64,000 bases of DNA, from positions 124,001 through 188,000 of the forward strand of contig CANMAW010000004.1 in NCBI GenBank assembly GCA_947495915.1. Reading direction: 5' to 3'. Numbering within the stretch: position 1 is the first letter of the stretch; every line of letters begins with the position of its first letter. Both the position numbers and the translations under genes were made by a program. Source of the DNA: Maribacter algarum (ex Lu et al. 2025) (nom. illeg.). GTDB taxonomy: Bacteria > Bacteroidota > Bacteroidia > Flavobacteriales > Flavobacteriaceae. The notes under the pieces are model-generated. The model ran no database searches. It saw only the letters and a program-made list of their open reading frames with translations, and was not told the DNA's origin. Below are positions 39,922 to 61,155 of this stretch, in pieces.

Positions 39922-39997
39922 GATATTCTTAATAAAATTTTTCCTCGAATTAGTTACCATTGATCACAATGGTTAAAAGATGTTTTTCTTGACCGGG

Positions 39998-41997: not shown

Positions 41998-43014
41998 TTA
42001 GGATTGACAATCCATCAGCACCTTCATGCCATCAGGGTTATTGTCAATATCTTCAAAAACTTTTTGAATATTACTCAAAGGCTGTACATCTGTGATCATC
42101 TTTTCAAATGGAAGCTCATTTTTAGTAATTAGATCAATCGCTTTCTCGTAGTCTTCTTTTTCATAAACTCGGGCCCCGATAAGTTTCAATTCCTTCCAAA
42201 AGAATTTAAATAAATCTATTTCTTTTTTCTGCCCATGTATGGCAACCATTAATATTCTACCTCTAATTCCTGCTACTTCAGTCATTACATCTAAAGCCGG
42301 TTGTACACCTGCAACCTCAAAAACAACATCGGCACGTCTGCCTTCGGTTTGTTCTTTGACATAATCTACCAAATCTAATTTAGTCGGATTTACTGCATTC
42401 AAACCTAACTCTTTGGCTTTGGCAATACGATTTTCGTTTACCTCAGAAACGATAACATTGGCACCAGTTTCTTTAGCTACCATTGCTACCAAAAGCCCTA
42501 TTGGGCCACCACCCAAAACTACAGCCGTTTCGCCAGCTTTTAATTCACTTAATCGCACATCATGAACCGCTACAGAAAGTGGTTCAATAAGTGCTGCTAA
42601 TTTTAAATCGGTTTCTTCTTTTAATTTATGCAACGTAAAGGCTGGTACATTCCAATATTGCTGCATTGAACCTGGGCTATCTATTCCAATGAATTTCAAA
42701 TCTTCACAAATGTGATTAAAACCTTTGTCAGAAGGTTTAACACCTCTATCATCAAGAGGCCGCACAACCACCTTTTCGCCCAAATCAAAGCCAGACACAT
42801 CTTCACCTATTGCGTCAATAGTACCTGACATTTCATGGCCAATTGTAACAGGAATACTTACACGCTTATCCATCATTCCATGATAAATATGCACATCTGT
42901 ACCACAAACACCAGAATAGGCTACCTTAATTCGCACTTCGCCTGCAGCTGGGTTTATAATTTCCTTCTCTATAACTGAAAAAGTTTTGTTGCCTTCGTAT
43001 ACTGTTGCTTTCAT
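41998..43014 (-). CDS. zinc-type alcohol dehydrogenase, 2-keto-3-deoxy-L-galactonate 5-dehydrogenase candidate
   Basis: A 338-residue medium-chain dehydrogenase starting MKATVYEGNKTFSVIEKEII; an ATG 5 codons upstream is possible. Catalytic-zinc residues are C37 (SGVCGTDVHIYHG), H60/E61 (GHEMSG) and E144 (LIEPL); the NAD site is VVLGGGPIGLL. The structural-zinc lobe (about 86-104) keeps only one cysteine (C103), so that zinc is probably absent. In the L-AHG route of Lee and co-workers a Zn-dehydrogenase oxidises 2-keto-3-deoxy-L-galactonate at C5 (EC 1.1.1.389), and the KduD-type reductase then yields KDG. Its position as first gene of this operon supports that assignment, but sorbitol- or threonine-type activity cannot be excluded. 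Confidence 0.82.
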   Translation of the reverse strand: MKATVYEGNKTFSVIEKEIINPAAGEVRIKVAYSGVCGTDVHIYHGMMDKRVSIPVTIGHEMSGTIDAIGEDVSGFDLGEKVVVRPLDDRGVKPSDKGFNHICEDLKFIGIDSPGSMQQYWNVPAFTLHKLKEETDLKLAALIEPLSVAVHDVRLSELKAGETAVVLGGGPIGLLVAMVAKETGANVIVSEVNENRIAKAKELGLNAVNPTKLDLVDYVKEQTEGRRADVVFEVAGVQPALDVMTEVAGIRGRILMVAIHGQKKEIDLFKFFWKELKLIGARVYEKEDYEKAIDLITKNELPFEKMITDVQPLSNIQKVFEDIDNNPDGMKVLMDCQS

Positions 43015-43022
43015 TATATTAA

Positions 43023-43063
43023 GTTTCAAATAATAAACTAGTTTCTCATTTGAAACAAATATA
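43023..43063 (-). promoter_or_regulatory. promoter and candidate IclR operator of the L-AHG operon
   Basis: On the minus strand TATATTTG (43063-43056) matches the Bacteroidota -7 element TAnnTTTG, 42 bp before the Zn-dehydrogenase start; no clear -33 TTG was found. It touches inverted repeats GTTTCAAA (43023-43030)/TTTGAAAC (43049-43056) and, inside these, GTTTC-N6-GAAAC (43041-43056). An operator there could block the promoter. The IclR gene lies just upstream. Confidence 0.45.
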
Positions 43064-43172: not shown

Positions 43173-43967
43173 CTAATTCGCTTGTAAATAGCCCAATTTA
43201 GCGGAAATTTCAAAGGCATATTTTGCTATAGTTTTACCTTTTTCATGAAACTGATCGTGAGGAAGTCGACCATGAGGTGCTGTAATCCAGAGCGCGGCAA
43301 CTGGTCTGCCATATTCATTAAAAATTGGAGCACCAACACAATGAATACCTTGAATATCTTCACCATTATCTATAGCATAGCCATTCTTTTTTATTTCTTT
43401 CAGCTGAGCTTTAAATTCTTTTTTTGAAGTGATGGTGTTTTTTGTGTACTTGGTTAAGGTCATCTTCTTTAAAATATCATTAGCCTCATCTGTCGGTAAA
43501 AATGCTAATATACTTTTACCCCCTACAGAACTATGCAAGCTAAATTGTGTACCCTGTTCAACAAATAGCTTTACGGGGTATGAGGAAGCTACTTGTTCTA
43601 AAATAGAACCTTTAGTACCTAATAAAACACCGAGCATTACAGATTCTTTAATTTCATCACGCAGTGCTCTCATTACATCAATTGACATTTCTACAATACT
43701 TTGCTCATTCATTGATGAAATACCTAAGGTTAACATTTTTCGCGACAAGGTTATTTTTTTGGTAGTCTCGTTCTTCTGCAGGTAATTTTTAAATATTAAG
43801 GTGCTTACCACCCTGAACGCTGTAGTCTTAGTCAACGATAAGCTTTCTGTTATTTCTGAAAGTGTAAGTCCACTCTTCTTTGTCGCCAGCAACTCTATAA
43901 CCATTAAACCTCGTTCTAAATTAGGTACATTATAAGCTGTTTTTAAATCGGGTTGCTGTTTACTCAT
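43173..43967 (-). CDS. IclR-family transcriptional regulator
   Basis: A 264-residue protein. The N-terminal winged helix (about 14-75) includes LTLSEITESLSLTKTTAFRV. The C-terminal GAF-like effector domain includes LFVEQGTQFSLHSSVGGKSI and the conserved YAIDNGEDIQGIHCVGAPIF. IclR proteins such as KdgR sense keto-deoxy sugar acids; here 2-keto-3-deoxy-galactonate or KDG is the natural candidate ligand (inference). It lies between GH117 B and the L-AHG operon on the same strand. A terminator separates it from GH117 B, and about 160 bp with a promoter separates it from the operon it may regulate. Confidence 0.92.
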   Translation of the reverse strand: MSKQQPDLKTAYNVPNLERGLMVIELLATKKSGLTLSEITESLSLTKTTAFRVVSTLIFKNYLQKNETTKKITLSRKMLTLGISSMNEQSIVEMSIDVMRALRDEIKESVMLGVLLGTKGSILEQVASSYPVKLFVEQGTQFSLHSSVGGKSILAFLPTDEANDILKKMTLTKYTKNTITSKKEFKAQLKEIKKNGYAIDNGEDIQGIHCVGAPIFNEYGRPVAALWITAPHGRLPHDQFHEKGKTIAKYAFEISAKLGYLQAN

Positions 43968-44070: not shown

Positions 44071-45297
44071 TTACTTCTTTTTAACGCCCTTAGCAACGTG
44101 TCTTGTTTTTCGTTTAGATGAGAAACGCATTATACTTTGGTAATCGCCTGAATTGTATACGTGAGTTAAGCCCCATCGAAGAATTTCAGTTGGTTCTTTT
44201 TCATTATCAGCGGTTCTGTTTAACCCAATAGCGTGGGCGTTTACACCAGGTATGACTGACATTATCTCAAAATTAATTCCATCAGGCGCCCATTGAATAG
44301 TATTTTTTTCAGGGCCATCGGTCGTGATTAAAGAAGCAATACCACCATTATATGGCCATACACAAATTTCATGACCACTATTACTTATTGGGTTGTAGGG
44401 TGACTTTACATAAGGCCCTTTAGGGTTATCAGCTATAGCTACACCGTGGCGAATTTGTCGTCCACCAAAAGTAATCGCCTCACCCATTTGCTCCCCCTTA
44501 TAATACAAATAGAACTTGCCGTTATATGGAAGAATACAAGGGTCGTGCACTTTATGACTATCAAAATCACCTTTCTTTTCAACTTGAAAACGATCTTGTT
44601 CTTCTCCTTTCCAAACACCATTGTCAGCAGGACGCAAAATGGGTTCCTCACTTTTGGTCCATGGGCCATTCGGAGAATCAGACCATGCTAAACCAATGGT
44701 ATTTTTTACGCGAACGTTATAAGGTGATTTTACCGCCTGATAACTTAAATAGTATTTATCTTCCCATTTCATAATTTCAACGGTAAATACAGAGCGATCA
44801 TCATAAGCTCCTTTTTCGCCTCTAGCTACGGCTAACCCTTCTTCTTTCCATGTCCATCCATCATCAGAAGTTGCGTACCAAATATCACATCGATCCCACG
44901 GAAAAACTTTTTCAGTTTCAATGTCTCCACCAAATCCTTGTGTAGGGCCCGTACTTTTTGTATACCATACATAATACTTACCATTTTCTTTAATAATTGC
45001 ACTAGGATCTCTACGAACTACACCTTCTTCGTATGCTAAATCACCCTTTAATGGCTGTAATTGCCCAAATTGTATAAACCAATCATTACCCAAATCCATA
45101 GGCCATTCTAATGCCCTTTTTGAAGCTGCACTTAAATATTCAGGATTCGTAATACCCAGGTGATCGATTTGGGCTTCGGTTGGTACTATTGTTTTCTTAG
45201 CCATTTCTGTTGGTTTATTTTCTTGTTGCGATGAACTAGTGCAACTAATTATAAAGCACGATGCAACAAATGATACTACTACTTTAATTTTATTCAT
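44071..45297 (-). CDS. GH117 alpha-1,3-(3,6-anhydro)-L-galactosidase paralogue B
   Basis: A 408-residue lipoprotein (MNKIKVVVSFVASCFIISC, Cys19). GH117 markers are [32 protein letters not shown] (D97), [33 protein letters not shown] (D252) and [15 protein letters not shown] (H309, E310). The C-terminus ends in a basic tail (SSKRKTRHVAKGVKKK) not present in paralogue A. It follows the GH2 gene by 15 bp and ends at a terminator, so GH2 and GH117 B form a two-gene unit. That pairing fits alternating exo-attack on agaro-oligosaccharides: GH117 removes L-AHG and GH2 removes galactose. Confidence 0.93.
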   Translation of the reverse strand: MNKIKVVVSFVASCFIISCTSSSQQENKPTEMAKKTIVPTEAQIDHLGITNPEYLSAASKRALEWPMDLGNDWFIQFGQLQPLKGDLAYEEGVVRRDPSAIIKENGKYYVWYTKSTGPTQGFGGDIETEKVFPWDRCDIWYATSDDGWTWKEEGLAVARGEKGAYDDRSVFTVEIMKWEDKYYLSYQAVKSPYNVRVKNTIGLAWSDSPNGPWTKSEEPILRPADNGVWKGEEQDRFQVEKKGDFDSHKVHDPCILPYNGKFYLYYKGEQMGEAITFGGRQIRHGVAIADNPKGPYVKSPYNPISNSGHEICVWPYNGGIASLITTDGPEKNTIQWAPDGINFEIMSVIPGVNAHAIGLNRTADNEKEPTEILRWGLTHVYNSGDYQSIMRFSSKRKTRHVAKGVKKK

Positions 45298-45312: not shown

Positions 45313-47844
45313 TTAATTAATTTCTATAAAGATTGGTTTACTGACAATTTCATTTGATAGGGCATATACCTTAATTTTTGAACTTTTATTTGTTGCTTGC
45401 AGAATCATTAAGGCTCGCCCTTTATCTGTTATTAAATTATCTGATTTATAAGGTTGGACATTATTGACGGCGCCGTTATCTACGCCCAAAATTTCAACTT
45501 CACCTTCTACCTTAAATTCTATTTTATGATTATAAGTTTTAACAGGATTACCATTATCGTCAATAAACTGAGCAATAACATGAGCCACATCATACCCATC
45601 ATTCTGCATTTTTAGTTTATCAGCAGTAATTTTAATTGCTACCGCTTTATCTGAAGTCTTTAGTTCCGTTTGTGCAGCTTTCCCATTTTTTTCACCCACA
45701 GCTCTTAAGGAACCTGATTTAAAAGGAACAGCCCATTTATATATATGATCTTCAAAACTACTAAGTTTCTTTTTACCTAACGACAAATCATTTAAAAACA
45801 ATTCTACGGACTCGCAATTGGAATACACTTCTACTATTGTTTTGTCTTCATCAGAATAATTCCAATGCTCATTAACATTATGCCAAGACCAGAGTGCCTT
45901 TTCCCATGCTCCTTCATTTCGCTCTATTGGATTATCAAGTATATCAGTTTTATATATTGATTTTTCTTCCAATTGCGTAGCTATTGCCACATAGGGCTCT
46001 TCGGTCCATAGCGACTTGAACATATGATAAGAAGGCTTTTCAAAACCTGCTAAATCTAATAATCCACTATTAGTTGCTTTTTTTGGCCAAGATCCGTTTG
46101 ACTCTCCTAAGTAATCGATACCTGTCCATAAAAATGTACCTGCAATAAATGGCCTCTCCATAACTGCTTTCCATTCATGATACTGTGCTAAATTCTCAGT
46201 TCCCATTACCGGAATTTCAGGATAATTTTCATGACCGTAATCATACATTACCCGTCGATAACTATAGCCAATCATATCAAGGGCATCGGCATAGCCAGAT
46301 TCATGACTAGAACTTGGTAGAATACTATTTGCAATAATATATCTTGTGGTATCGAGTTCTCTGGTCCAGTTTGCTAATTTTAAAGCTGTCTCGCCGATAT
46401 CATAGTTACCTTTCGGCAACTCTTCTAACTTTTTCTTTATTTCCTTTGGTGTATGAGGAGGTTGTGACCAAAAGTAATTTCCGCTCCAGTCCATATTATT
46501 GAAAAATCCGGTCGCATCTCCATTTCTAGGGTATGTCCATTCAATTTCATTACCAATACTCCATTGAATAATTGAAGGATGATTTCTATGCGCCAAAACC
46601 GTATTTTTCAAGTCAGTTTCTGCCCATTCTTGAAAATGTTCAGTATACCCTCTTGTGATATGATCGACGCTTTGTTCATTCATATTCAATCTCTTATCTT
46701 TCGGATTATCCCATTCATCAAAAAACTCATCTTGCACTAAAAATCCCAATTCATCACATAAATCAAGAAACTCTTGAGATGCAGGGTTATGAGAAACTCG
46801 AATTGCGTTACAGCCCGCCGCTTTCAATTTTTTCAACCTTCTCCGCCAAACTCCTTTAGGTACAGCAGCACCAACTAATCCTGCATCATGATGTAGGCAA
46901 ACTCCTTTAATTTTACGATTAATATCATTTAAAAAGAATCCCTCATTAACATCAAAACGAATACTTCGAATACCGAAATTTGTTTCAACCTTTTCCATAA
47001 TGTTTTCATTCTCCTTAACTATGGTAATTGCCTTGTATTGATATGGAGAATTAATATCCCATAATTTGGGCGCATTAATTGTTATGGTTTGTTTTAAAGT
47101 TTGCAATGCACCACTTTCTATTTGAATATCAGATTTTAAAGTGTGAATTAGTACGCCTTCTGCATCTTCAATTCGAGTAACTACTTTAACCATTTTATTG
47201 GTGTCAAAGTCGTTTTGCAATTTAGTTTCTATTACTACATTGGCCTGCTCATCAGTACTAGAAGGGGTAGTTATAAAAGTACCCCAAACAGGAACATGCA
47301 ACTTGTTTTTAACAAGTAACTTGACGTTTCTATAAATACCAGAACCCGTATACCAGCGACTGTCAGCATATCTTGTACGATCGACCTTTACATTGATTGT
47401 ATTTGTAGAACCATCGGTATGTATAACATCTGATATATCTAAAAAGAAAGGTGCATACCCATATGGATGCGATTCTAAGAGTTTACCATTGATATCTATT
47501 TCAGAATTATTGTAAATACCATCGAAAACTAGAAATGCCTTTTGATCTTTTTTAAGTTTTAAGTCAAAATCTTTCTTATAATAGCCAGTTCCTCCTGGAA
47601 GGTAAGCAGTACAGCCTTCTAAATTTTTATTTGCTATTTGTTGAATACTCCAATCATGTGGTAAATTTATAGTTTGCCATTGCATTTCGTCTTCCTGAGT
47701 CACACCATTTTGAGGCTTTAGCTGAAATTGCCAATCAAAGTTAAAATCAATGGTATTGGAAATAGTTTTTGAATTACTCGATTGTTGACAACTTAAAAAG
47801 CTTAAAAAAAAGAAGGTATAGCATATTTTTTTTAACATATTCAA
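45313..47844 (-). CDS. GH2 family beta-galactosidase lipoprotein
   Basis: An 843-residue enzyme with a lipoprotein signal (FLSC). The true start may be the second Met ([17 protein letters not shown]), two codons in. The GH2 plan is clear: sugar-binding N-domain ([19 protein letters not shown]), Ig-like domain, and a TIM barrel with acid/base Glu in SIGNEIEW (about residue 430) and nucleophile Glu in [14 protein letters not shown] (about 546). A C-terminal Ig-like tail follows ([12 protein letters not shown]). The fold resembles the DUF4982-containing Bacteroidota subset. In a galactan locus with GH117 it probably releases beta-galactose from the non-reducing end of agaro- or porphyran oligosaccharides. 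It is cotranscribed with GH117 B. Confidence 0.92.
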
Positions 47845-48685
47845 CTACATAAGAATTTGGTGCTGCTAAGCTTACAATTATTATCTACTATATTATTTTA
47901 CTGCGCCAACTTCTAATTAAATAGTTGAAAATTAAATCAAATTTTAAAGTGACACCATGTGACAAACGCTTAGACCATTTGTCGATACTGTGCTTGCCTT
48001 TGTTTATTGAACTTTAACTTTTTTAAAAAAATCAAAGATTCGTTTTGGCAATTTGTTCTTACGAAAAATTCTTTAGGGCAAATGCATTAAACGTATAAAA
48101 CACAAGATTTTTTCAAATCAATTGGTAAAAGGTAAATATGCATATTTTAACTTTTGAAACTATTTAAAATAACTCGACAAAAACTGAACATGTTGTATTT
48201 TCAGCATATACCTATTCATAATAGCAAATGATTACAGACCTCTAACTTTACAATGAGATTTTATGATGCCGTAAATACTGTACCTAAACGATGTAAACAA
48301 CAGGTCTATAAATGTTAATTCGAAATATTACATTTTTGTTACCTACGATATTCTTTATGATTTTATCTGATACTTCTTGCAGCTGACTATTGGCTATGAA
48401 AACATAGATTTCAAAATAGTTACAGTAGTAATTATTTAATAAAAAAAGTATCAATCACTTTAAGAAAGAAATAAAACAATTACTTCACTGAATAGCCCTT
48501 TAACTCGTCTTTTTAAAATGTAAATCAGTTAAAAAATCGAAAACTTATATAATAAACTCAATAGTCTCACTCTCGTCTTCGCAATGATAATAAATATCTA
48601 ATTTGCTATCATTGATTATTTAACTAGCTACGAATTTTCACCGCAGTAAATCAATGAGCAAGCGTATATTTCTTTGAGTTTTTAT
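47845..48685. other. 841-bp non-coding interval upstream of GH2
   Basis: AT-rich DNA between the GH2 unit and the TPR-LuxR gene, with no substantial ORF. It holds the GH2 promoter, which I could not place with confidence. A direct repeat of GTGACA occurs near 47.95 kb, and there is a small plus-strand ORF (48312-48386). It is unusually long for this gene-dense locus. Confidence 0.5.
48312..48386 (+). pseudogene. 24-codon ORF resembling a lipoprotein signal peptide
   Basis: The ORF encodes MLIRNITFLLPTIFFMILSD followed by TSCS and a stop, which looks like a lipoprotein leader ending near its cysteine. It could be a remnant of a deleted lipoprotein gene, or chance in AT-rich DNA. Confidence 0.25.
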
Positions 48686-50338
48686 TTAAAGAGAAGCTAT
48701 AAAATCTTCTAGATTGACACTACGGTCAAGTTTCATTTTCTTTCTTAAACGGTATCGTGTAGTATGCACTGATTCTACCGAAATGCCTAATAGCCTAGCC
48801 ATTTCTTTACTTGAAAAATTCAGTTTAATTAAAGCACATATTTTCTGATCTGATTGACTTAGATTAGGATATTTTGTTGTCACCTTTTTATAAAAATCTT
48901 CGTTAACAGCTGTAAAACGCAATTTGAATTCTTCCCAATTACTTTGATTACTAGTAGAGATTGATTTTAATACTTTATGTATTTCGGTAGTCTTTATATT
49001 ACCATTATCACCTTTTAGCTTACTTTTTATATCTTTCAAAAACTCATCTTTCTCTACTAGTTGCAGTGCAGATGTCGCTAGTTCTTTGTTTTTTAGCTCT
49101 AAGAGTTCACGAGCTTTTTGAATTTCAAGTTCCTTATTTCTACGAATTAGTTCTTTCTCAATTTTATGCTTAGCCCTTATTTGCATTACATACACGGCTG
49201 CAATAATCAGTGTGAATACTAGCGCACCTAACAAGATAATTCGTTGTAATAATGAAATTTCATCTTCTTGTTCAAGTCTTGCTAAACGCTGTTTCTGAAT
49301 AAGACGTTCTTGCCGTTCTTTTTCTAATCGAAACTCATCTTTTATTTCAAGTAGGGGTTTATTTACCGGACTACGACTATCAAAAAACTGTGCATCTAAC
49401 TCTCTTGCAAGTTTTTGACTATTAAATGCCTTATTAAACGCACCCTCTTCAATATATTGATTTACAAGTCTTTCATGAATTAATACAGAAAAGTCTAAAT
49501 GACTTTTATATTTATCTGCGATGGCTAAGGCTTTCTTATAATACGTTTCACTTTCTAACAAATTATCAAGTTGTTGATATACATCTCCCCAGTAGGTATA
49601 CACTAATACCAAATAAGACGGTCTATTTTTTAAAAACCAAGGTTCTATTTCTTTAAAAAGGTTAATTGCTTTTTCATGTTCAAACTCACGTGTTAGTATA
49701 AAGGCTCTTTCAAATTTGAGATATGTTTTACTCAATTCATTTTTACTTGCATCATAATATTGATTGCAACTATCAAGGTAAATTTTACCAATTTCGGGTT
49801 GACCTAATTCTCTATATGTAGCACAATAAAAATAATAGTTTTGTGCAAGATGTGATCTATCTAATTCACCTTTTGCCACCAAATCTTTATTGATGTTTAA
49901 TGAGGTGTTTAAATACTCAAAAGCTTTGTCTTCCTTTTTATAAAAGCTGTATAATCGTCCTAGCTTATTGTAAATTAACGCCTTGGGTGCTTCACCCTGT
50001 AAATCATCTGCTAAAAAAAGCGCTAACCAAAGTGCATCATAGGTTTTAGCGTAATCAACTTTTTGCCCATGATGGTACGGCATTTCTAAAAGAGAGGTAA
50101 TTGCTTGTAGTGTATCTCCTTTTGCCAAAAAACCCCTATAAGCTTTTTCAAACAGTATTGTTGCTTGATCTGAATTTTTAAAACGAATAGCTCTAGCTTT
50201 ATCTAAAAGCTCTTCTGAATCTAATGATTGTGCTGTATTTAAAACTTCTTGACCACGTAAGCCTAGCCCACATAAAACCACAACTAAGCTAATACCCAAT
50301 TGAATTAAACGCACATAAAAACTATGGGTAAAAATCAT
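48686..50338 (-). CDS. membrane-anchored TPR regulator with LuxR-type HTH
   Basis: A 550-residue protein. It has an N-terminal signal or anchor (LIQLGISLVVVLCGLGLRGQ), then a periplasmic TPR array (about 40-340; for example GDVYQQLDNLLESETYYKKA). A transmembrane helix follows at about 365-388 (IILLGALVFTLIIAAVYVMQ), then a cytoplasmic coiled coil (about 390-450). The C-terminus is a LuxR/GerE-type HTH (LSQSDQKICALIKLNFSSKE, GISVESVHTTRYRLRKKM). The topology suits direct signal passage from periplasm to DNA without a kinase. Its ATG overlaps the stop of the FG-GAP gene (TAATG), so the two are translationally coupled and may form one sensing system. It probably regulates the SusC/SusD operon. 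Confidence 0.9.
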   Translation of the reverse strand: MIFTHSFYVRLIQLGISLVVVLCGLGLRGQEVLNTAQSLDSEELLDKARAIRFKNSDQATILFEKAYRGFLAKGDTLQAITSLLEMPYHHGQKVDYAKTYDALWLALFLADDLQGEAPKALIYNKLGRLYSFYKKEDKAFEYLNTSLNINKDLVAKGELDRSHLAQNYYFYCATYRELGQPEIGKIYLDSCNQYYDASKNELSKTYLKFERAFILTREFEHEKAINLFKEIEPWFLKNRPSYLVLVYTYWGDVYQQLDNLLESETYYKKALAIADKYKSHLDFSVLIHERLVNQYIEEGAFNKAFNSQKLARELDAQFFDSRSPVNKPLLEIKDEFRLEKERQERLIQKQRLARLEQEDEISLLQRIILLGALVFTLIIAAVYVMQIRAKHKIEKELIRRNKELEIQKARELLELKNKELATSALQLVEKDEFLKDIKSKLKGDNGNIKTTEIHKVLKSISTSNQSNWEEFKLRFTAVNEDFYKKVTTKYPNLSQSDQKICALIKLNFSSKEMARLLGISVESVHTTRYRLRKKMKLDRSVNLEDFIASL

Positions 50339-53300
50339 TAAAAAGCGGTATTAATCTGAAACAAATCAAAATTATCATTATTGTTTGCAACACCAACGTA
50401 TTTTTTTTGACCGGTTGTTATAAGAATCATATTTCGAACATCTTTATCGGCAAAAAAACCTGACTCTGTATTTGATATAAATCTAAAATTGCCATTGTTA
50501 TCTCCCTTAAGAAAAGTCCCAATTCCGGCATCTGCTCGAGTCGTCTCTACTTCTGACTGATAGTTATTACCTGCTAATAGAAGATCTTTATTTCCATCAT
50601 CATCAAAGTCAAAATACAGAATGCTATTTATGGGTGATTGTTGCGAATGAATTTTAAAAGGCTCAAATTTAAAACCTTCCGTTCCATGATTCACGAAGAT
50701 TCCAGAGCGAAATTCATTGGCCTTATAGTGCAGTGCTTCATCTAAATTATTGCCTACAATTCCTTTTAAATCCTTATTTGCAAAATCAGTATATGTCGGT
50801 ATGGTTTGAGCTAAATGAGGTAGTTGTTGCGTCATACAACCTTTACCTCTAATTGGTACTTGCTTGCCATTATAATCTTTAGCTAGAATTACGTCTTCAG
50901 AACCATTAAGATCAAAATCTGAAGAGTAAATTTCAAAAGGTTTATCTTCTGAAGCGTGAAACTTATAATTCAATCCCAAATTTCCGGCAACAATATCTAA
51001 ATCACCATCGCTATCGACATCTTCAATTAAAAGCCTGTTCCACCACCCTACTGCATTTGACAAACTTGGATAGTCATCACTTCGTACCAGAACATTATTT
51101 TTATTTAAAAAAACTTGAACCCCCATCCATTCACCTGTCAACACTAGATCTGTTTTTTTGTCATTATTGATATCTACCCAAACTGCATCTGTAATTAAAC
51201 CTATTTTCATTAATTGAGGAGCCAATTTGTCATTTTCTATGGAAAATTCACCGTTGTCATTTATTAATAAAAGACTACTTGCAGGATGCGGGTATTTACC
51301 TGTAATTAAACGCCCACCAACAAACAAATCGATATCACCATCATTATCGTAATCTGATGGCACGACTACTGAACCTGCTATACCTACTTGCGGCAAAGCC
51401 TTACTAGATCTTTTAAAATTACCATTGCCATCATTCAAATAAAGACGATCTATCAACATTTTCGGAATGCTAAAAAACTCATAGCTACCACTGACCACAT
51501 ATACATCTTCATCTCCGTCATTATCTGCATCAAAAAATGCAGCACCTACATCTTCGAACGATTTATCATTTTCAAAAGCTATATTCTTCTTTTTTATAAA
51601 TTTCCCCCTAGTATTACCCAGCCATAATTGGGCTGGTTGACTATGCCCACCGCCAAGAAACAGATCTTCAATACCATCATTATTTACATCAGCTTTAGCT
51701 ATTGCAGGGCCGGTTTGGGATAATTTATGTGGTAATAAAACTTGTATATCATAATCATTAAAATATGGGTCAATATGCTTTATATCAACAGCAGTTTTTG
51801 TAAATATTGTTTCTTTAATTTGTCTTTCTTTTCTCGAATTTGCTGAGGCATAATTAATGGCCAATACTTGATTAGCTTTCACATTTGTCAATTCTTGAAT
51901 TTTACCATCGGGCCAGATCACTTCTAGTTTTTCAACATTTTTATGCTCGCCTAAACCAAAGTTTAAAACATTTGGGACAGATGACAAGAAACCTCTGGTG
52001 TTAATTAATTGTCTTGTTTGTGTAGAATGATCATTAAAATAGAGATTAACTGTTGCCCCAATGCCAAAGGGGTTCTTATTGGGGCCCTCAAACGATAGCT
52101 TCAAAAAATTTACAGATGTTTGGTCTGTGGCATTATTTCGCAACAATGTTACACTTTCATTGATGTTATTGGTAACAATATCTAAATCACCATCATTATC
52201 TAAATCTGCATAAACAGCTCCATTTGAAAAAGTAGGTGAGGAAGTACACCAAGATGAAGTTTTGTCTATAAAGGTTCGATTTCCAGTATTTTGAAAGATA
52301 TAATTGTTCAACTTTTGCTGCGGAAGCATTTTAGAAAAACGTAGAAAGTCTTCTGCGGTTGGTTTGCGTTGATTTTCTTTTAATATTTTAAGTATTTCAT
52401 TGTTTTTATCTCTGTCAATCACATCTCTATAAACTCCGTTAGTAACATAAATATCATTAAAACCATCTAAATCAAAATCAGCAGATAACAATGACCAACT
52501 CCAATCAGTATTAGCCATACCTGACATATTACCTATTTCACTAAAGGTTCCATTACCATTGTTCATTTGTAACATGTTGTGCATGTATTGGTGATGATAA
52601 CCACTTTCGACCATTTGTTCAAATTGATCAATAGAAGTCATACCCATTGTAGTTTTCGATCGAATATAATCTTCTGGGTTCATATCTAGTGTCATCAAAT
52701 CTTGCAGCCCATCATTATCAATATCGGCTAAATCACTACCCATACTATTGAATGACATGTGTTTAAATACCTTGTCTCGTGATTCGGTAAACGTACCATC
52801 TTGGTTGTTAATATATGCCAAGTCAGGACTATTAAAGTCATTACTAACGTAGACATCCGACCAACCATCATTATTCAAATCACCTACTTGCGGATTCAAT
52901 CCAAAACCAATATCAAACTGTAGGCCTGCTTTGGTTGAAACATCTGTAAAATGACCTGTTCCATCATTGTTATACAACCGATCACTCCCCTTTAATTCAA
53001 GAGTTTTAGGGTCATTATGAATTTTGCTTAGATCAAGTACTTGCGTACGACTTGTAATATCAGGAGTATTAGAAACATAAACGTCTAAATCATTATCTTG
53101 ATCATAATCAAAAAAAGTAGCCTGTATTGATCTATTGGCGTCAGCCAACCCCATTTCGGCTGCCCGTTCAGTAAAAGTTAAATCACCATTATTTATGTAC
53201 AGTAGGTTAGAAAATTTATTGTCTTCATCTTTCCATCCACCACGAGAAACGTAAATATCTAAGTACTTATCGTTATTAACATCTACCATGGTTACTCCGG

Positions 53301-53703
53301 TATTAAAGCCATCATTTATGGTTGTACCCGCACTACTGGTTATATCTTTAAACTTAAAATCTCCAAGATTTAAATACAATTTATCATCAGATGAATTTGA
53401 AGTAAAATACAAATCAACCAAGCCATCATTATTAAGGTCGCCTACAGCTACTCCGCCACCAATATAGGTGTACATATATTGATAGTAATTTGACTCCAGT
53501 GTTTCTTCCAAAGTATTCACAAAATCAATTTTAGATTCTTCAGAAGAAATTGTGGTAAATAACTTATCAATTTCTTGAGTTACTTCGTTTTTTTGAGCTG
53601 TATTATCATCACAAGAAGAGTTTATAAAAAGTAACAAAAACAGAAACGGTTTGATACTTTTATATAGATAAATACTACTAAATCTTAAATTAGTATTGTT
53701 CAC
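50338..53703 (-). CDS. giant FG-GAP/ASPIC (CRTAC1-type) lipoprotein
   Basis: A 1121-residue lipoprotein (lipobox near NSSC, residue 31). It carries at least fourteen calcium-loop repeats of D-x-D/N-x-D/N-G type, for example DLNNDGLVDLYF, DVNNDKYLDIYV, DFDLDGFNDIYV and DFDDDGNKDLLL, arranged as two beta-propeller halves. An UnbV/ASPIC domain lies between them at about 600-675 (GIGATVNLYFN, VIWPDGKIQELTNV). It is likely exposed on the outer membrane or in the periplasm and calcium-stabilised. It lies downstream of susD but behind a terminator, and is coupled to the TPR-LuxR regulator. A glycan-binding sensor or surface accessory to the SusCD pair is a reasonable hypothesis; the function of this family is poorly known. 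Confidence 0.9.
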   Translation of the reverse strand: MNNTNLRFSSIYLYKSIKPFLFLLLFINSSCDDNTAQKNEVTQEIDKLFTTISSEESKIDFVNTLEETLESNYYQYMYTYIGGGVAVGDLNNDGLVDLYFTSNSSDDKLYLNLGDFKFKDITSSAGTTINDGFNTGVTMVDVNNDKYLDIYVSRGGWKDEDNKFSNLLYINNGDLTFTERAAEMGLADANRSIQATFFDYDQDNDLDVYVSNTPDITSRTQVLDLSKIHNDPKTLELKGSDRLYNNDGTGHFTDVSTKAGLQFDIGFGLNPQVGDLNNDGWSDVYVSNDFNSPDLAYINNQDGTFTESRDKVFKHMSFNSMGSDLADIDNDGLQDLMTLDMNPEDYIRSKTTMGMTSIDQFEQMVESGYHHQYMHNMLQMNNGNGTFSEIGNMSGMANTDWSWSLLSADFDLDGFNDIYVTNGVYRDVIDRDKNNEILKILKENQRKPTAEDFLRFSKMLPQQKLNNYIFQNTGNRTFIDKTSSWCTSSPTFSNGAVYADLDNDGDLDIVTNNINESVTLLRNNATDQTSVNFLKLSFEGPNKNPFGIGATVNLYFNDHSTQTRQLINTRGFLSSVPNVLNFGLGEHKNVEKLEVIWPDGKIQELTNVKANQVLAINYASANSRKERQIKETIFTKTAVDIKHIDPYFNDYDIQVLLPHKLSQTGPAIAKADVNNDGIEDLFLGGGHSQPAQLWLGNTRGKFIKKKNIAFENDKSFEDVGAAFFDADNDGDEDVYVVSGSYEFFSIPKMLIDRLYLNDGNGNFKRSSKALPQVGIAGSVVVPSDYDNDGDIDLFVGGRLITGKYPHPASSLLLINDNGEFSIENDKLAPQLMKIGLITDAVWVDINNDKKTDLVLTGEWMGVQVFLNKNNVLVRSDDYPSLSNAVGWWNRLLIEDVDSDGDLDIVAGNLGLNYKFHASEDKPFEIYSSDFDLNGSEDVILAKDYNGKQVPIRGKGCMTQQLPHLAQTIPTYTDFANKDLKGIVGNNLDEALHYKANEFRSGIFVNHGTEGFKFEPFKIHSQQSPINSILYFDFDDDGNKDLLLAGNNYQSEVETTRADAGIGTFLKGDNNGNFRFISNTESGFFADKDVRNMILITTGQKKYVGVANNNDNFDLFQINTAF

Positions 53704-53787: not shown

Positions 53788-53819
53788 AAGCGGTAAAACT
53801 ATGAAGAATTTTACCGCCT
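53788..53819 (-). terminator. intrinsic terminator between susD and FG-GAP gene
   Basis: GCGGTAAAA (53790-53798) pairs with TTTTACCGC (53809-53817). On the minus strand the stem is followed at once by an eight-T run. It should limit read-through from the highly expressed susCD genes into the sensor genes, or act as an attenuator. Confidence 0.85.
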
Positions 53820-53851: not shown

Positions 53852-55372
53852 TTAATTTGCCAAATTCGGATTTAAAACAATTTCATTTGCAGGTATGGGC
53901 GCAAAATAATTATCAGTACCAAGTGACCCAAGAATAGGGTTGGCTACTTGCAACAATTCACCCGCTGCATTCATAGTTGTTTGTGGGTCACGATTGCCTA
54001 ATGCTTGCTCAACACGCTCCATACGAACCAGGTCATTCCATCGTAGCCATTCACCAGCTAATTCCCATTTTCTTTCTGTAAAAGCCAGTTCAGCTAAATC
54101 ACCACTAGTTACATCAACACTAGCATCGGGTGTATCGAAAGGTAAGCCTTCAGCTCTTCTACGAATTTGATTTAAAGCTTCCCAAGCATCTGCATTTTCA
54201 GAACCTGCTCTACCTGATGCTTCAGCATAAATTAATAAGACTTCAGCATAACGCATATACAAATCGTTTCGGTTGGTATTAAAAGCTGACAATGGAATAT
54301 CTCCTTCTGGACCAACTATTTTCTTAAACACGGGGTTTTGTTGATCAGTAAAATTTGCAAAATCATGCTCGGTTCTATAGGTTGCTTCTTTTCTTGGCCC
54401 TTCAGGAAAATCTTCGTAAAATCTGATTTCAGCAAATGTTTCTTGCCATCCTTGCAAATCAGATGGATTACCTAATTTGCCATACTTACGGTTATGAAGG
54501 TTTTCATCTGTATTGTAAGGAATTGTCCAAACACCTTCATCATTAAATCGATTTTCTAACTTCCATAGATCTTCTAAATCACCTAATAATGCAAAACCAT
54601 GTGAGCTTGCATTATCAATAACCTGCTTCGCTTTAGACGCTGCAGCCCCGTACTTAGAATTGTCTTTTACCGGAAAACCTGCCCAGTCCATATACAACCT
54701 TGCTAACAAAGCAGCTGCAGAACCAGAATTGGGTCTTGGAGCACCGGCCTGAGCACCAGGATAAATCGCAGGTAAAAGAGATTCAGCTTGCAGCAAATCT
54801 CCTTCAATTTGAGCATATACATCTTCTTGACTCGCTCTAGAAATATCTAATTCAGGTTCGGAGGTTAGTGGTAAAGGAATTCTACCATGAACACGAGCAA
54901 GGTGAAAAAACATGGCTCCTCTTAAAAAGTATACCTCACCTAACAATCTATTTTGAGCATCAGTATCTGTTAATTCTAAACCTTCAGCACTCTCTAAAAC
55001 GCTATTAGCAGCGCGAATCATTCTGTAAATATCTCTCCAGTTACCCACAGTACGTGCATTTTCAGGAGATATTGAACGTTGATCAAACTCTCTAAAATCG
55101 GCCTTATTACTCACTTTGTGTGTTGTAATATCATCACCACCCCAACCATGTACAAAGAAAGTTGACCATTGCGAAGCGTTTCTTAATTGCGAATAAATAC
55201 CTGTTACGCCTAATTCTAGTTCAACCTGATTGCTATAGGCACCTGGCGCTAGTAAAGATAAACCAGGATCTTCTTCTAAATCTGCACAGCCGTTAAAAAC
55301 TAACGCACTTACAAACATCACAGTAGCATAAAACCGAGGTTTTAGCATTTTTTTTATGTTTATATTTTTCAT
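53852..55372 (-). CDS. susD: SusD/RagB-family outer-membrane glycan-binding lipoprotein
   Basis: A protein of 506 residues from MKNINIKKMLKPRFYATVMF with lipobox FNGC. An ATG 9 codons earlier (55399) is also possible and would almost touch the susC stop. SusD features are the N-terminal NYSQLRNA-type helical start (ELGVTGIYSQLRNASQWSTF), TPR-like helices (NRLLGEVYFLRGAMFFHLAR) and the conserved C-terminal block (LYMRYAEVLLIYAEASGRAG, AFTERKWELAGEWLRWNDLV). It caps the SusC barrel and delivers oligosaccharide to it. The substrate is presumably an agar- or porphyran-type galactan, from the neighbours. A strong terminator follows. Confidence 0.95.
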   Translation of the reverse strand: MKNINIKKMLKPRFYATVMFVSALVFNGCADLEEDPGLSLLAPGAYSNQVELELGVTGIYSQLRNASQWSTFFVHGWGGDDITTHKVSNKADFREFDQRSISPENARTVGNWRDIYRMIRAANSVLESAEGLELTDTDAQNRLLGEVYFLRGAMFFHLARVHGRIPLPLTSEPELDISRASQEDVYAQIEGDLLQAESLLPAIYPGAQAGAPRPNSGSAAALLARLYMDWAGFPVKDNSKYGAAASKAKQVIDNASSHGFALLGDLEDLWKLENRFNDEGVWTIPYNTDENLHNRKYGKLGNPSDLQGWQETFAEIRFYEDFPEGPRKEATYRTEHDFANFTDQQNPVFKKIVGPEGDIPLSAFNTNRNDLYMRYAEVLLIYAEASGRAGSENADAWEALNQIRRRAEGLPFDTPDASVDVTSGDLAELAFTERKWELAGEWLRWNDLVRMERVEQALGNRDPQTTMNAAGELLQVANPILGSLGTDNYFAPIPANEIVLNPNLAN

Positions 55373-55401
55373 TTTTTTTATTAATTTTTTATGAAACATT
55401 T

Positions 55402-58400
55402 TTAGAAATCTAATTTTACCCCAATTGATAAAGTTCTAGGATTTGGATATGATCCGGTATTTATACCTGCAGCAACATCAACGTTACCTGCGTTATCAGC
55501 TGGTGTTGAAGTATGCTCTGGGTCATATCCTGAATAATCGGTAATCAGAAACAGGTTTTGACCAGAAACATAAATTTTTGCATTGGTATTTGTCTTACCT
55601 ATATCTCTTATAGTATAACCTAAAGAAAGGTTACTCAATCGAATAAAATCTCCTTTTTCAACATATCGTGTTGAACCAGCGTCATTTAATCCACCCGCAG
55701 GAACGTCGGTTTCATTGGTTGGAGTCCACTGATTTATTTGCTCTGCTGCTAAGAAACTTCTTTGATTACCTGTAGCACCCACAATTACACCTTGAACAGC
55801 ATTAAGAACTTCAAAATCATGCACTCCTTGAATAAACACATTTAAATCCCAATTTTTGTAGCTTAATGTGTTATTAAAACCCCAAAAAGTTGTTGGTGTT
55901 CCATTCCCGATAGCACCTATTACACGGTTTCCATCTGCATCTCTTAAATATCTTGCATCACCGGGTTCTGCAATTGGTGTACCTGCATCATTTAGAGGAA
56001 TATTATCTGTTGACTTCCAAGTGCCTAAAAACGTAGAACCATTAAACTGACCCAAAGGTTGGCCTACTTGTATTACATTCCAAATTCTACTTTGGCCGTC
56101 GATACTTTGAAAAGTACCTTGAATTTCATCAACCCCTCCTAAATCAACCACTTCATTTTTTGAGTATGAAAAACTTAAATTAGAATCCCATGAGAAATTA
56201 TCTGTAGCATAAACAGATCCAGAAAGTGAAACATCAATACCAGTATTTTCTACTTCACCAACATTTCTAGTAATTGCACCACCTCCATTAGTTGTCGGCA
56301 CAGGAATATCTAATAACAAATCAGTAGTGTTTTTCTTATAACCGTCTAATGCGAGATTTAAACGACCATTAAAAAATCCAAAATCAAGACCAACATTCGT
56401 TTGAGTTGTTGTTTCCCAAGTTAAATCTTCATTTCCGTATCCATCAGGAGATGAACCTGGCGAAACCGAAGAACCATCGAATGAAAAAGTACTATTTGCA
56501 TTAACACTTGGAAATGTGGTGTAAGGTGCAATATTTTCGTTACCTACTTGACCCCAACCTGCTCTAATACCAAAATTACTTAGCACCTTACTATTTTCGA
56601 TAAACTCAGTATTCGCGAAGCTATATTTAGCAGAAACAGACGGAAAAGTACCTGTTCTATTACCCTCTCTAAATTTTGAAGATGAATCAACACGCACCGT
56701 ACCTGTTAAGAAAAAACTGCTGCCTAAATTGTATTCAGCACGCCCCATCACTGATTCAATTGCTGATTTGCTATACGAATTACTAAAATTCTTACCCGCA
56801 GCAAATTCACCGAAATAGAAGCCCGCGGGCACCGCTAAATTATTACCCGTATATCCATTAAATTTTCCTTCAAAACCAGAAAACTCATAAACACCTGTCA
56901 TCTTGAAATTATGATCTCCAAAAGCTTTCTGCCACGTAAGAACATTACTTATTTGATGCGAAGTGTTTTTAGCGTTTCCGTAAGACACATCATTATCAGG
57001 CTCATCTGTTCTATAGGTTTGATTGTTGTTATTAAAAGTAGAGACACCTGCAATTAATGAATAACTAAAATTGTTAGTGAACGCGTAGTTCAAATTCAGA
57101 TTAGCATTGATTCGATCATTAACCTGATCAATTTGAGTTGTATTTAAATCTTCAATAGGGTTAATATTTAAAGACCCTAAAGCTCTTTCTGAAAAACGAT
57201 TGAATTCACCATTGCTATTATAAATTGGTGTAGTAGGGTCCCACGTAAGTGCCTTTATAACCACACTACCTTGAAATCTATTTAAAGCCGTAATATCATT
57301 TAATGTTGTAGCTCTTGTACCAAAGATATTTAATCCTACTTTCAATTTTTCAGTTACATCAACATTTAGATTTGCTCTAAGAGAAGCTCTTTCGTATCCA
57401 GTATTAATGATAGTACCCTCTTGGTCAACATAATTACCAGATAAAAAGTAACTAGTTTTACCTTCAGAACCACTTACAGACAACTGTACGTTTTTAGAAA
57501 TACCTGTTTGAAACAACTCATCTTGGTAGTTTGTTCCACCTGAAGCGTACAGGTTGGTAATTTCAGCATCAGTAAAAATTGCTTGCCCACCTTGTCTTAA
57601 TCTCCTAGAGTTTTCTATGGTTGCAAAATCACCCGCTCCTAAGGTAGGTAATTGGTTAGGTATTGTTGCAATAGTCGTAAATACATCTAAAGATACCTTA
57701 GCATCACCTCTACCCTTTTTGGTTGAAACCAAAATAACACCATTCGAAGCTCTTGAACCATAAATAGCAGAAGCAGAAGCATCTTTAAGTACTTCCATTG
57801 AAGCAATATCATTAGGGTTTAAAGTACTAAGGTCGCCACCAATTACACCATCAATAACAACCAAGGGACTGTTATCTCCGTTGATAGAATTCACACCACG
57901 AATACGTACTTTAATAGCTGAACCTGGTCCGCCACCAGCTCGCGAAACAGCAACACCAGAAGCTCGCCCTTGTAAGGCGTCTTCAACACGTGTTAAAGGT
58001 TGTTTTTCAAATGACTCGGAAGATACTTGTGAAATTGCACCCGTTAAATCACTCTTTTTAGAGGTACCATACCCAATTACTACAACTTCATCTAACTGAC
58101 TAGCATCTTCTGCTAGTTGAACAGTTATACTTGTTTGACTTCCAACGGTTACTGTTTGAGTAGCATAACCTAAATAAGAGATCACAAGTACATCTTCAGA
58201 AGATGCTTCAATAGAAAAGTTACCATCAAAATCGGTTTGTGTTCCATTGGTGGTACCTTGAACAAGAATATTCGCGCCCGGTACCGGACCACCAGTTTCA
58301 TCTGTTACCGTACCTGAAATTGTTTGTTGTGCAAAAGCATACTGCGTACCCAAAAACACAAAAAACAGCCCGGTAAGGAAGCATTTTTTTAAAAGTTTAA

Positions 58401-58422
58401 AGAATTGTTTTTCCATAATCAT
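55402..58422 (-). CDS. susC: SusC-family TonB-dependent glycan transporter
   Basis: A 1006-residue outer-membrane protein; the start may be the third residue (MEKQFFKLLKKCFLTG). Order of domains: signal peptide ending QYAFA; a carboxypeptidase-D-regulatory-like domain (about 33-110: ISGTVTDETGGPVPGANILV); a TonB box/plug beginning DEVVVIGYGTSKKSDLTGAI with the conserved RVEDALQGRASGV and SASAIYGSRASNGVI segments; and the 22-strand barrel ending in GVKLDF. No N-terminal secretin/STN anti-sigma domain is present, so it is a transporter and not a FecA-type transducer. It forms the import pair with the downstream susD. It is preceded by a 584-bp interval with several palindromes. Confidence 0.95.
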   Translation of the reverse strand: MIMEKQFFKLLKKCFLTGLFFVFLGTQYAFAQQTISGTVTDETGGPVPGANILVQGTTNGTQTDFDGNFSIEASSEDVLVISYLGYATQTVTVGSQTSITVQLAEDASQLDEVVVIGYGTSKKSDLTGAISQVSSESFEKQPLTRVEDALQGRASGVAVSRAGGGPGSAIKVRIRGVNSINGDNSPLVVIDGVIGGDLSTLNPNDIASMEVLKDASASAIYGSRASNGVILVSTKKGRGDAKVSLDVFTTIATIPNQLPTLGAGDFATIENSRRLRQGGQAIFTDAEITNLYASGGTNYQDELFQTGISKNVQLSVSGSEGKTSYFLSGNYVDQEGTIINTGYERASLRANLNVDVTEKLKVGLNIFGTRATTLNDITALNRFQGSVVIKALTWDPTTPIYNSNGEFNRFSERALGSLNINPIEDLNTTQIDQVNDRINANLNLNYAFTNNFSYSLIAGVSTFNNNNQTYRTDEPDNDVSYGNAKNTSHQISNVLTWQKAFGDHNFKMTGVYEFSGFEGKFNGYTGNNLAVPAGFYFGEFAAGKNFSNSYSKSAIESVMGRAEYNLGSSFFLTGTVRVDSSSKFREGNRTGTFPSVSAKYSFANTEFIENSKVLSNFGIRAGWGQVGNENIAPYTTFPSVNANSTFSFDGSSVSPGSSPDGYGNEDLTWETTTQTNVGLDFGFFNGRLNLALDGYKKNTTDLLLDIPVPTTNGGGAITRNVGEVENTGIDVSLSGSVYATDNFSWDSNLSFSYSKNEVVDLGGVDEIQGTFQSIDGQSRIWNVIQVGQPLGQFNGSTFLGTWKSTDNIPLNDAGTPIAEPGDARYLRDADGNRVIGAIGNGTPTTFWGFNNTLSYKNWDLNVFIQGVHDFEVLNAVQGVIVGATGNQRSFLAAEQINQWTPTNETDVPAGGLNDAGSTRYVEKGDFIRLSNLSLGYTIRDIGKTNTNAKIYVSGQNLFLITDYSGYDPEHTSTPADNAGNVDVAAGINTGSYPNPRTLSIGVKLDF

Positions 58423-59006
58423 TGGTTTAAATTGAAAAAGTTGAGTTTTGAATTAATTATTAGAATTCTAAATAGTTAATCGTCCTCTCAATACTGAGGC
58501 ATTGCTAAATAATCATAACAAGCATTAACATATCAGTAATTAAGATAACCTAAAACTAATAATTACGTAATTTGGTTGTAGAGAATTTCACTAGACTTAA
58601 ACTAGACAGTTTAATTTCTTTTGGTTGAATACTCATTCAACCACCTGATTCAATAATCCCTATTTCAGCGGCCTACTGCATCTTTAGCTGTGCTAAACGA
58701 ATATTTTATATAAATAGAAGCTGAGAAAAAATCTGCACAGTTCAATGACAAAAAGTTAAAACTGTAAATGCCAGACAGGTAGTTCAAAAAACTAATTCAT
58801 ATGACAGATGGTTTAATTATACTGACGGTATATTTAAACCTCTACCAAATAATTTAAAACCATAACTACATCTTAATAATGGCCCTTTTGGCAACACATT
58901 GGTTTAAAGTTTATTTTTATACTACGGCATATCTAAAACAATAGCTATTTGCTATATAAAGGATAATAAAAGTTCAGCAACTATTTTCTTCATTGCGAAC
59001 CACTTT
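58423..59006. other. susC upstream region with repeats
   Basis: A 584-bp non-coding interval between the sulfatase stop and the susC start. It contains the palindrome AATTACGTAATT (58561-58572), a direct repeat ACTAGAC (58590-58596 and 58601-58607, 11-bp period) and an 8-bp-stem hairpin (58623-58642). No ORF of note was seen. Confidence 0.6.
58561..58642 (-). promoter_or_regulatory. candidate operator region of the susCD operon
   Basis: Within 82 bp, about 140-220 bp upstream of susC, lie a perfect 12-bp palindrome, two ACTAGAC copies one helical turn apart, and GGTTGAAT-ACTC-ATTCAACC. The phased direct repeat suits an activator such as the TPR-LuxR protein. This is a prediction only. Confidence 0.4.
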
Positions 59007-60488: not shown

Positions 60489-60588
60489 GTTTAAATAAAA
60501 ATCACATTAAATTACTGATTTTATTAAATTTAAGTAACTATTTCTAGACAGATTTTACGAAAGGTTTTTCTAGTCGCCTGTTTTAATT

Positions 60589-61155
60589 TTAACCAACCGA
60601 CCAAGCTTTACCTTTGGATATTTCATTTAAACTTTCGCATGAATAATAAGCTCCAGGTATTGGGTCATAAGCTAAAACCTCTTCTCCAACATATTCATTG
60701 CATTTATAGGCCCAAATTATTAAACCACGAAGCTTCATTATAAAAGGTATTCTATCTTCTGATGTTGACATCACTGCATTTTGAATTACAGGTGTTAAAT
60801 CGGAAATACTGACTTTTTTTAATTCTGAACTATCAGAATTTTTTAAAGCTATACTAGCCAGCTCATTAATAGTTTTTTTGAAAGTTTCTTGCTCCTCTTT
60901 TTTAAAACAAGCAGCAGCAAAATTATCTAAAAAAATATGTACGTTTACTTCTGAAGCTGAAGGTGTATCTGTTTTAGGAAGCACTACATCTACTATATTT
61001 CGGAATATAACACCTTCCGATTGCGACAATAATTTAGGAATCCATACACTGTTTTCATTATTCGCACAACCTTGCAATAGTCCTGTAAATGTTGGAGCTG
61101 CCACTATATACCCCAATGACAAAGCCATTTTCTCTAGCGCTTTTCTTCTTTCCAT
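60589..61155 (-). CDS. gluconate 2-dehydrogenase subunit 3-like protein, second copy
   Basis: A 188-residue protein with a twin-arginine-type start MERRKALEKMALSLGYIVAA and a lipoprotein-like Cys (LLQGC). The body includes EGVIFRNIVDVVLPKTDTPS and MKLRGLIIWAYKCNEYV, fitting the small-subunit family of GMC dehydrogenases. Its start overlaps the stop of the GMC gene by 1 bp (TAATG), so the subunits are made together. It is only distantly similar to the copy at 16.5 kb. It probably supports export and electron transfer of its GMC partner. Confidence 0.85.
   Translation of the reverse strand: MERRKALEKMALSLGYIVAAPTFTGLLQGCANNENSVWIPKLLSQSEGVIFRNIVDVVLPKTDTPSASEVNVHIFLDNFAAACFKKEEQETFKKTINELASIALKNSDSSELKKVSISDLTPVIQNAVMSTSEDRIPFIMKLRGLIIWAYKCNEYVGEEVLAYDPIPGAYYSCESLNEISKGKAWSVG

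Follow-up and report, generated by a model that had tools for sequence, protein, structure and literature searches.

How a polysaccharide-utilization locus (PUL) is switched on, and by which of its own proteins, is the question raised by a 64,000-nucleotide stretch of the Maribacter algarum genome (contig CANMAW010000004.1, positions 124,001 to 188,000; referred to as the window). Sensing of which algal polysaccharide is present has been worked out for few marine Bacteroidota loci. In the window, a susC-susD pair is followed by a gene for an FG-GAP/UnbV-ASPIC protein (PROP) and one for a membrane protein with TPR repeats and a C-terminal helix-turn-helix (HTH), termed TPRL. An earlier, sequence-only reading of this DNA had proposed a coupling of the two in a one-step route running from a surface propeller through the TPR domain to DNA. 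Comparison of sequences leads us to a different view, which we consider probable: TPRL is a one-component PUL activator with a tandem-repeat operator and PROP an interchangeable SusCD lipoprotein, the two sharing an operon but not acting as a joint sensor. The features concerned are as follows.

48686..50338, minus strand: TPRL, TPR-HTH protein of 550 amino acids (aa), proposed one-component activator (open reading frame (ORF), Pfam scan and model)
50338..53703, minus strand: PROP, FG-GAP/UnbV-ASPIC putative surface lipoprotein of 1121 aa, proposed SusCD accessory (ORF and Pfam scan)
53788..53819, minus strand: hairpin of 13 pairs with T-run, in the susD/PROP gap (sequence scan)
53852..55399, minus strand: SusD-like lipoprotein (ORF and family scans)
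55402..58422, minus strand: SusC-like TonB-dependent transporter (TIGR04056, 800.6 bits)
58551..58558, minus strand: candidate -7 box TAGTTTTA, 32 nt after the operator (coordinates derived from box scans)
58591..58607, minus strand: candidate operator GTCTAGTTTAAGTCTAG, an 11-bp direct repeat 169 bp before susC (seven-operon comparison)

A candidate operator upstream of susC

TPRL was sought in 149 genomes of the family at E<=1e-40, with up to 9 candidates scored per genome. It was found in 12 of them, from 11 genera, as at least 34 genes. The 38 TPRL neighbourhoods that were read comprise these 34 survey genes, three from further congeners and one on a Maribacter contig.

When the DNA upstream of susC was aligned for seven operons of the order susC-susD-PROP-TPRL, one block proved invariant in all seven, namely TGTCTAGTT followed by three bases and GTCTAG (9 and 6 invariant columns as marked by the alignment tool). 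The candidate operator is thus a direct repeat, GTCTAGTN4GTCTAG, with an 11-bp period, exact in 7/7. At <=1 mismatch, the pattern GTCTAGTNNNNGTCTAG occurs a single time in the 4.17-Mb genome, upstream of the window's susC. Non-coding DNA of the TPRL loci held 17 sites at this stringency, in 14 of the 38, against 0 in 18 control loci (13 stretches of the same genome and 5 loci of glycoside hydrolase (GH) family 66). The reversed pattern gave no site, and 12 permuted repeats of the same form gave at most 1 each. Half-sites were spaced at the 11-bp period in 19 cases, compared with 0-2 at other spacings. Looser masking gave 18 sites, distributed over 7 TPRL loci with full-length PROP and 8 in which no PROP was seen. 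One of the latter, L073, is not informative on PROP, because the contig ends right behind TPRL; L064 and L079 are also cut by contig ends. Judged by gene position and length, the targets include susC, GH117, GH2 and TPRL itself (L073); this leaves aside four sites that fall within genes or have no gene start close by. The operator is new here, as a candidate site found by comparison.

Many operator sites have a TAnnTTTG match 31-33 nt further on; this motif is described as the -7 box used by the primary sigma factor of Flavobacterium and spans -12 to -5 (PMC9723704). This distance places the operator at about -61 to -45, which would be a usual position for an activator. A paralogue locus of the same genome (L009) and its relatives L055 and L057 have GTCCAGTTTTTATTGAG or GTTTAGTTTTTATTGAG ahead of susC and the box 32 nt on; a scan for exact repeats found no eleven-base repeats in promoters of this type, which were seen through alignment and box distance instead. 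A glyoxalase-like protein of 183 aa (L009:996-1606) is preceded by the same promoter layout, as are its relatives in L056 and L057. A composite model (relaxed operator plus -7 box at 31-33 nt) gave 23 sites in 15 of the 38 TPRL loci, a count that is partly fitted because the relaxed pattern was written after some of these loci had been viewed. The controls and the distance scan were not fitted: no site was found in 29 control loci (566,390 bases), and 16 other three-base box distances gave 0-4 sites. The model was found before susC in four of the seven four-gene operons (the window, L083, L084 and L085). A scan for E. coli-type sigma-70 promoters was uninformative (60 found, 71.2 expected).

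The distribution of TPRL points the same way. Of the 149 genomes, 14 have the cycloisomerase that marks 3,6-anhydro-L-galactose catabolism, 12 have TPRL and 11 have both (Fisher one-sided p = 3.1e-13, which overstates the case because genomes are not independent draws). The two draws of 149 genomes used the same settings, and their sameness was judged from the visible members. Eleven 20-kb stretches with the pathway but without TPRL, taken from three pathway genomes lacking a TPRL match and from two pathway loci away from TPRL in TPRL genomes, showed no intergenic operator site at <=2 mismatches; one site in L105 lies inside a gene and was not counted as intergenic. These stretches include L104, which carries a full-length PROP. 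On this sample, then, the operator follows TPRL. TPRL tracks 3,6-anhydro-L-galactose catabolism, and co-occurrence and operator together are strong for sequence evidence.

TPRL very probably regulates the susCD operon of the window, and in this half the earlier reading is strengthened by the operator and by the co-occurrence with the sugar pathway. TPRL would be a SusR-like one-component activator in the inner membrane. The signal for its periplasmic TPR domain is most likely an oligosaccharide that has been imported, or a product of it, and its cytoplasmic HTH would bind the tandem GTCTAGT repeat immediately ahead of the susC promoter. It would thereby switch on susC-susD-PROP-tprl, its own gene included, and probably also the GH2-GH117 genes. 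PROP would join the SusCD transporter as a surface lipoprotein that captures substrate or passes it on, in a place apparently taken by PKD-type or SusE-like proteins in other loci.

Several points weigh against this reading. The operator, a site known from comparison alone, could be bound by another protein. The strict pattern at <=2 mismatches, which gave 40 sites in 23 of the 38 TPRL loci, also gave 1 site in the 18 control loci, and permuted repeats gave up to 5. By pattern alone, the GH2 site of the window is no better than chance. Besides the partial fitting of the composite count, 23 of the 38 TPRL loci have no composite site (12 in the distant part of the TPRL tree and 11 in the half that includes the window), and two composite sites out of 23 have no same-strand gene start within 450 bp. 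In three four-gene operons (L023, L071, L072) the repeat before susC is exact, yet a full -7 box is missing at 31-33 nt. One genome (G368) has TPRL without the pathway marker, and three (G317, G339, G415) have the marker without TPRL. For PROP, both role and surface location are read from context alone, its AlphaFold2 model having been set aside at a pLDDT (predicted local distance difference test) of 31. Finally, TPRL shows no match at E<=0.01 to PF19904 (DUF6377), the family of the two dextran-locus regulators that were scanned.

The propeller lipoprotein and its link to the regulator

PROP contains nine FG-GAP_3 stretches (Pfam, E 3.5e-71) and one UnbV_ASPIC domain at residues 547-614 (E 5.5e-23), the latter as had been read from the sequence. 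The claim of at least fourteen calcium loops holds for a loose motif pattern (14, against a shuffle mean of 1.5 and a largest value of 5); a strict one gives 11 (against a mean of 0.4 and a largest value of 3). The lipobox, NSSC, is weak and was assessed by eye; lipidation is predicted. The single solved relative found by sequence at E<=0.1 is Cartilage acidic protein 1 (9etn, E 1.5e-16).

The genome has 11 ASPIC genes. Seven of them lie directly behind a susD-like gene, and only the window copy adjoins TPRL. PROP thus has the gene order of SusCD accessory lipoproteins, with the weak lipobox already mentioned. Its nearest paralogue in the genome (60% identity) belongs to a SusCD locus (L007:8394-18725) with an extracytoplasmic-function (ECF) sigma factor and FecR, and the SusCD pair of that locus is just 33% and 25% identical to the window's. 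Among the loci fetched, the nearest SusCD pair of the genome is that of L011 (52% and 55% identical), which has no PROP or TPRL in its 20-kb stretch. ASPIC genes, totalling 52 matches, are present in every one of the nine congeners without a TPRL match, several of which are incomplete. SusE/F and the BtuG propeller lid are likewise encoded with a TonB-dependent transporter (PMC10404256). BtuG is described there as a seven-bladed beta-propeller, whereas PROP, known here from genes, has ASPIC and FG-GAP repeats over 1121 aa. Among the matches listed from the open-access literature, titles and the starts of abstracts gave no link of FG-GAP/ASPIC lipoproteins to SusCD, subscription papers and full texts being outside this scope. 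With 11 members in this genome, these lipoproteins are a common neighbour of SusCD that has seemingly been little studied.

PROP might also be an enzyme or an adhesin that uses the operon for expression only, without handling glycan together with SusCD. Two ASPIC genes of L003 do lie several genes away from the nearest susCD, and the function of PROP is only predicted. We consider this unlikely in view of the seven of 11 ASPIC genes directly behind susD, and of the other proteins that take the place of PROP in TPRL loci: among five third genes scanned, a PKD domain scored above the Pfam cut-off in 3 and below it in 2.

ASPIC genes also occur in tandem (L003:3662-10274 and L052:10943-17750) and in a short form of 563 aa (L002:12019-13710). 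L063 and L068 have FG-GAP proteins of smaller size (628 and 616 aa) in the vicinity of distant TPRL genes; these are outside the count of full-length PROP.

The repeat itself might be the operator of some other nearby regulator, such as the IclR-family protein encoded at 43173, with TPRL acting elsewhere. An IclR gene is present in the window and also within 8.5 kb of TPRL in L072 and L074, and it may be noted that TPRL is common to all the loci compared by design of the survey. We give this possibility little credence, since no intergenic site at <=2 mismatches turned up in loci that have the pathway and IclR but not TPRL (L103, L104, L105, L106, and L107 next to L102). In addition, sites at <=1 mismatch are present in 15 TPRL loci, and in 13 of these no IclR gene was seen within 8.5 kb, the range examined.

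Coupling of PROP to TPRL was tested in three ways: by adjacency of PROP to TPRL genes, by adjacency of TPRL to ASPIC genes, and by whether the operator follows PROP or TPRL. None of the three supported it. Full-length PROP was found within 8.5 kb of 9 of the 38 TPRL genes and directly adjacent to 8, whereas SusC or SusD lies within 8.5 kb of 21, of which 12 show no PROP. From the other side, 7 of 113 ASPIC matches in 15 TPRL-bearing genomes adjoin TPRL (positions matched by hand). Elsewhere, TPRL occurs with SusCD and a PKD-type protein, or without SusCD within reach, and PROP with other regulators. The sequence-only reading had itself proposed co-occurrence of the pair next to susCD as a test, and because of these low counts the coupling largely fails it; what survives is the order susC-susD-PROP-TPRL, which recurs in 5 of the 14 congeneric genomes searched, in a single genome from a different genus (L072) and on the Maribacter contig (L023). 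L052 has the four-gene order with two PROP genes. In the TPRL tree, the nine PROP-linked rows do not form one clade; seven of them, including the window, do (100/98), and the sister group of five rows contains both L074 (SusCD with a PKD protein) and L052 (PROP).

A surface protein cannot reach the periplasmic domain of an inner-membrane regulator without crossing the outer membrane. That surface PROP senses the glycan and signals to the TPR domain of TPRL, which then acts on DNA, would fit the TAATG overlap, the kept four-gene order and the two PROP genes of L052, but is very improbable given the rarity of the pair, the operator signature in TPRL loci where no PROP was seen, the nearest PROP paralogue in an ECF/FecR locus and the outer membrane between PROP, at its inferred location, and the regulator. 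PROP and TPRL are better taken as separate modules that would share one operon, with no demonstrated signalling step between them.

TPRL among known regulators

The description of TPRL as a membrane TPR-LuxR protein stands for the TPR domain and the transmembrane helix, and in part for the HTH. The TPR_12 match is clear (E 7e-9, 36.2 bits against a Pfam cut-off of 30.1). The C-terminal HTH scored 21.7 bits against Sigma70_r4_2 (cut-off 25.7) and 17.1 bits against GerE, the LuxR family (cut-off 23.5); as both are below the cut-offs, LuxR is a loose label. Hydrophobic segments lie at about 7-27 (signal or anchor) and about 361-387 (a single internal transmembrane helix). The AlphaFold2 model, built with four sequences, has a mean pLDDT of 73 and a predicted template-modelling score of 0.51, and shows helical repeats at 41-318, one long helix at 327-422 and an HTH-like C-terminus. 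The predicted topology is a periplasmic TPR domain and a cytoplasmic HTH; from sequence and model, TPRL has the layout of a single-chain periplasmic sensor, a single transmembrane helix and a cytoplasmic C-terminal HTH. Among the 50 Foldseek matches listed for this model are TPR proteins (LGN, Rap and others; best E 1.2e-5), with TM-scores by query length of 0.18-0.40, and none of those listed covers the full layout.

Two full-length TPRL homologues only were found in the genome itself, along with one match to the C-terminal part alone, in L010; a scan of named genomes gave 3 relatives only. The second full-length copy (L009:6883-8499) lies beside SusCD, where the third gene weakly resembles PKD. 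The match in L010 is a Y_Y_Y-domain HTH regulator of 954 aa (L010:6314-9178), whose C-terminal part is 39% identical to TPRL residues 386-549 and which differs by its Y_Y_Y domain, with no TPR match at E<=0.001. This identity suggests that sensor domains may have been swapped on one HTH lineage.

As had been proposed, TPRL differs from hybrid two-component systems, having no histidine kinase, receiver or AraC-type HTH domain (Pfam, E<=0.01). The distinction from ECF/anti-sigma systems was likewise upheld: neither an ECF sigma factor nor FecR occurs among the ten window proteins scanned, whereas both occur at L007. The distinction from SusR was too strong: SusR is reported to sit in the membrane, sensing on the periplasmic side and binding DNA through a cytoplasmic domain (PMC3878776). 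By that description, SusR of B. thetaiotaomicron (BT3705) has a layout like that of TPRL. The predicted SusR sites are direct repeats whose centres are 67 or 77 bp apart (PMC3878776), as against 11 bp for the TPRL operator.

A search for starch SusR through NCBIfam SusD found none in 296 genomes, and dextran-type regulators around GH66 genes were therefore used as stand-ins, five proteins being picked by gene order. In four of the five cases the regulator immediately precedes susC, a layout reported for the dextran locus of F. johnsoniae (PMC10316084). All five resemble TPRL: they are 540-573 aa long, have one transmembrane helix each at about 326-344, and lie in or beside the SusCD cluster. 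In hhalign, TPRL aligned with them at 99.9% probability over 480 columns with 19% identity; hmmsearch matches were weak, at 11-30 bits with a large composition bias of 37-57. Two dextran-locus proteins match PF19904 at E 1.8e-66 and 1.4e-68, and four homologues of TPRL, like TPRL itself, gave no match to it (L009 at E<=0.1; L071, L074 and L081 at E<=0.05). Given the similarity in size, transmembrane helix and profile, yet no PF19904 match, TPRL is regarded as SusR-like: it would work like a SusR-type regulator, probably from outside the PF19904-type family.

A parallel by annotation is in Muricauda, where a LuxR-annotated gene heads many laminarin clusters (PMC13188888). These PULs, with a PKD protein besides, are somewhat like the L009 locus; they concern laminarin and not galactan, and the regulator is given there by annotation only, with no operator or domain analysis in the text available (PMC13188888). 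Other regulators of red-algal galactan loci are on record. In Zobellia, an AraC-type protein is described for carrageenan, in a paper that also describes deletion mutants of Zobellia galactanivorans (PMC5698469); for a Bacteroides agarose locus, the regulator reported is a putative hybrid two-component protein (PMC5849685). A BT3442_fam match was followed up and dropped: BT_3442 is described as a multi-domain TPR protein that clusters with MACPF genes, and PULs go unmentioned in the passages on it (PMC2954219). Among the matches listed from the open-access literature there was no TPR-HTH PUL regulator of the TPRL kind, the operator sequence itself not having been searched for.

We judge it an even question whether PUL activators of the TPR-HTH membrane type are a lineage of their own, as yet without a name, within the marine Flavobacteriaceae, one whose members have a promoter code in common and work with exchangeable SusCD accessory lipoproteins (FG-GAP/ASPIC or PKD-type). 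The code would be an 11-bp tandem repeat of the GTCTAGT type, 31-33 nt and a -7 box. If so, sequence would allow the regulons of this lineage to be recognized, those for 3,6-anhydro-L-galactose catabolism above all. For agar/porphyran loci, the reading favoured here would, if right, supply a lineage of regulators together with a defined DNA site and promoter arrangement, making their regulons predictable and directly testable.

The surrounding locus

The TAATG junction reported for the two ORFs was confirmed, with both on the minus strand and a one-base overlap. Their position downstream of susCD was likewise confirmed, with the addition that a gap of 148 bp, holding the hairpin and T-run (53819-53788, minus strand), stands between susD and PROP. 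Similar hairpins were seen by eye in five of the six other four-gene operons printed (L023, L072, L083, L084, L085); that of L071 is not clear. The hairpin may lower the expression of PROP and tprl relative to susCD. The remaining features are listed below.

48173..48189, minus strand: weak candidate operator GTTCAGTTTTTGTCGAG ahead of the GH2 gene, followed at 32 nt by CATATTTA (pattern scan)
45313..47844, minus strand: GH2 enzyme, beta-galactosidase-like (family scans)
44071..45297, minus strand: GH117 3,6-anhydro-alpha-L-galactosidase (match to 3p2n, E 9.9e-246)
43173..43967, minus strand: IclR-family regulator (Pfam scan)
41998..43029, minus strand: zinc-dependent dehydrogenase of the anhydrogalactose cluster
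39998..40768, minus strand: short-chain dehydrogenase of the anhydrogalactose cluster
38467..39960, minus strand: aldehyde dehydrogenase of the anhydrogalactose cluster
37375..38466, minus strand: 3,6-anhydro-L-galactonate cycloisomerase (match to 5xd7, E 3.4e-189)

Judged from its genes, the locus is a PUL for red-algal galactan sugars. A substrate of the agar/porphyran type, guessed at from the sequence, fits because the GH117, cycloisomerase, GH2, aldehyde dehydrogenase and two further dehydrogenase genes adjoin. A second GH43-like gene lies in the anhydrogalactose cluster (40795-41982, minus strand), with Pfam matches resembling those of GH117. Upstream of susC (59007-62867, minus strand), genes for a sulfatase, a gluconate-2-dehydrogenase subunit 3-like protein and a GMC oxidoreductase possibly belong to the locus as well.

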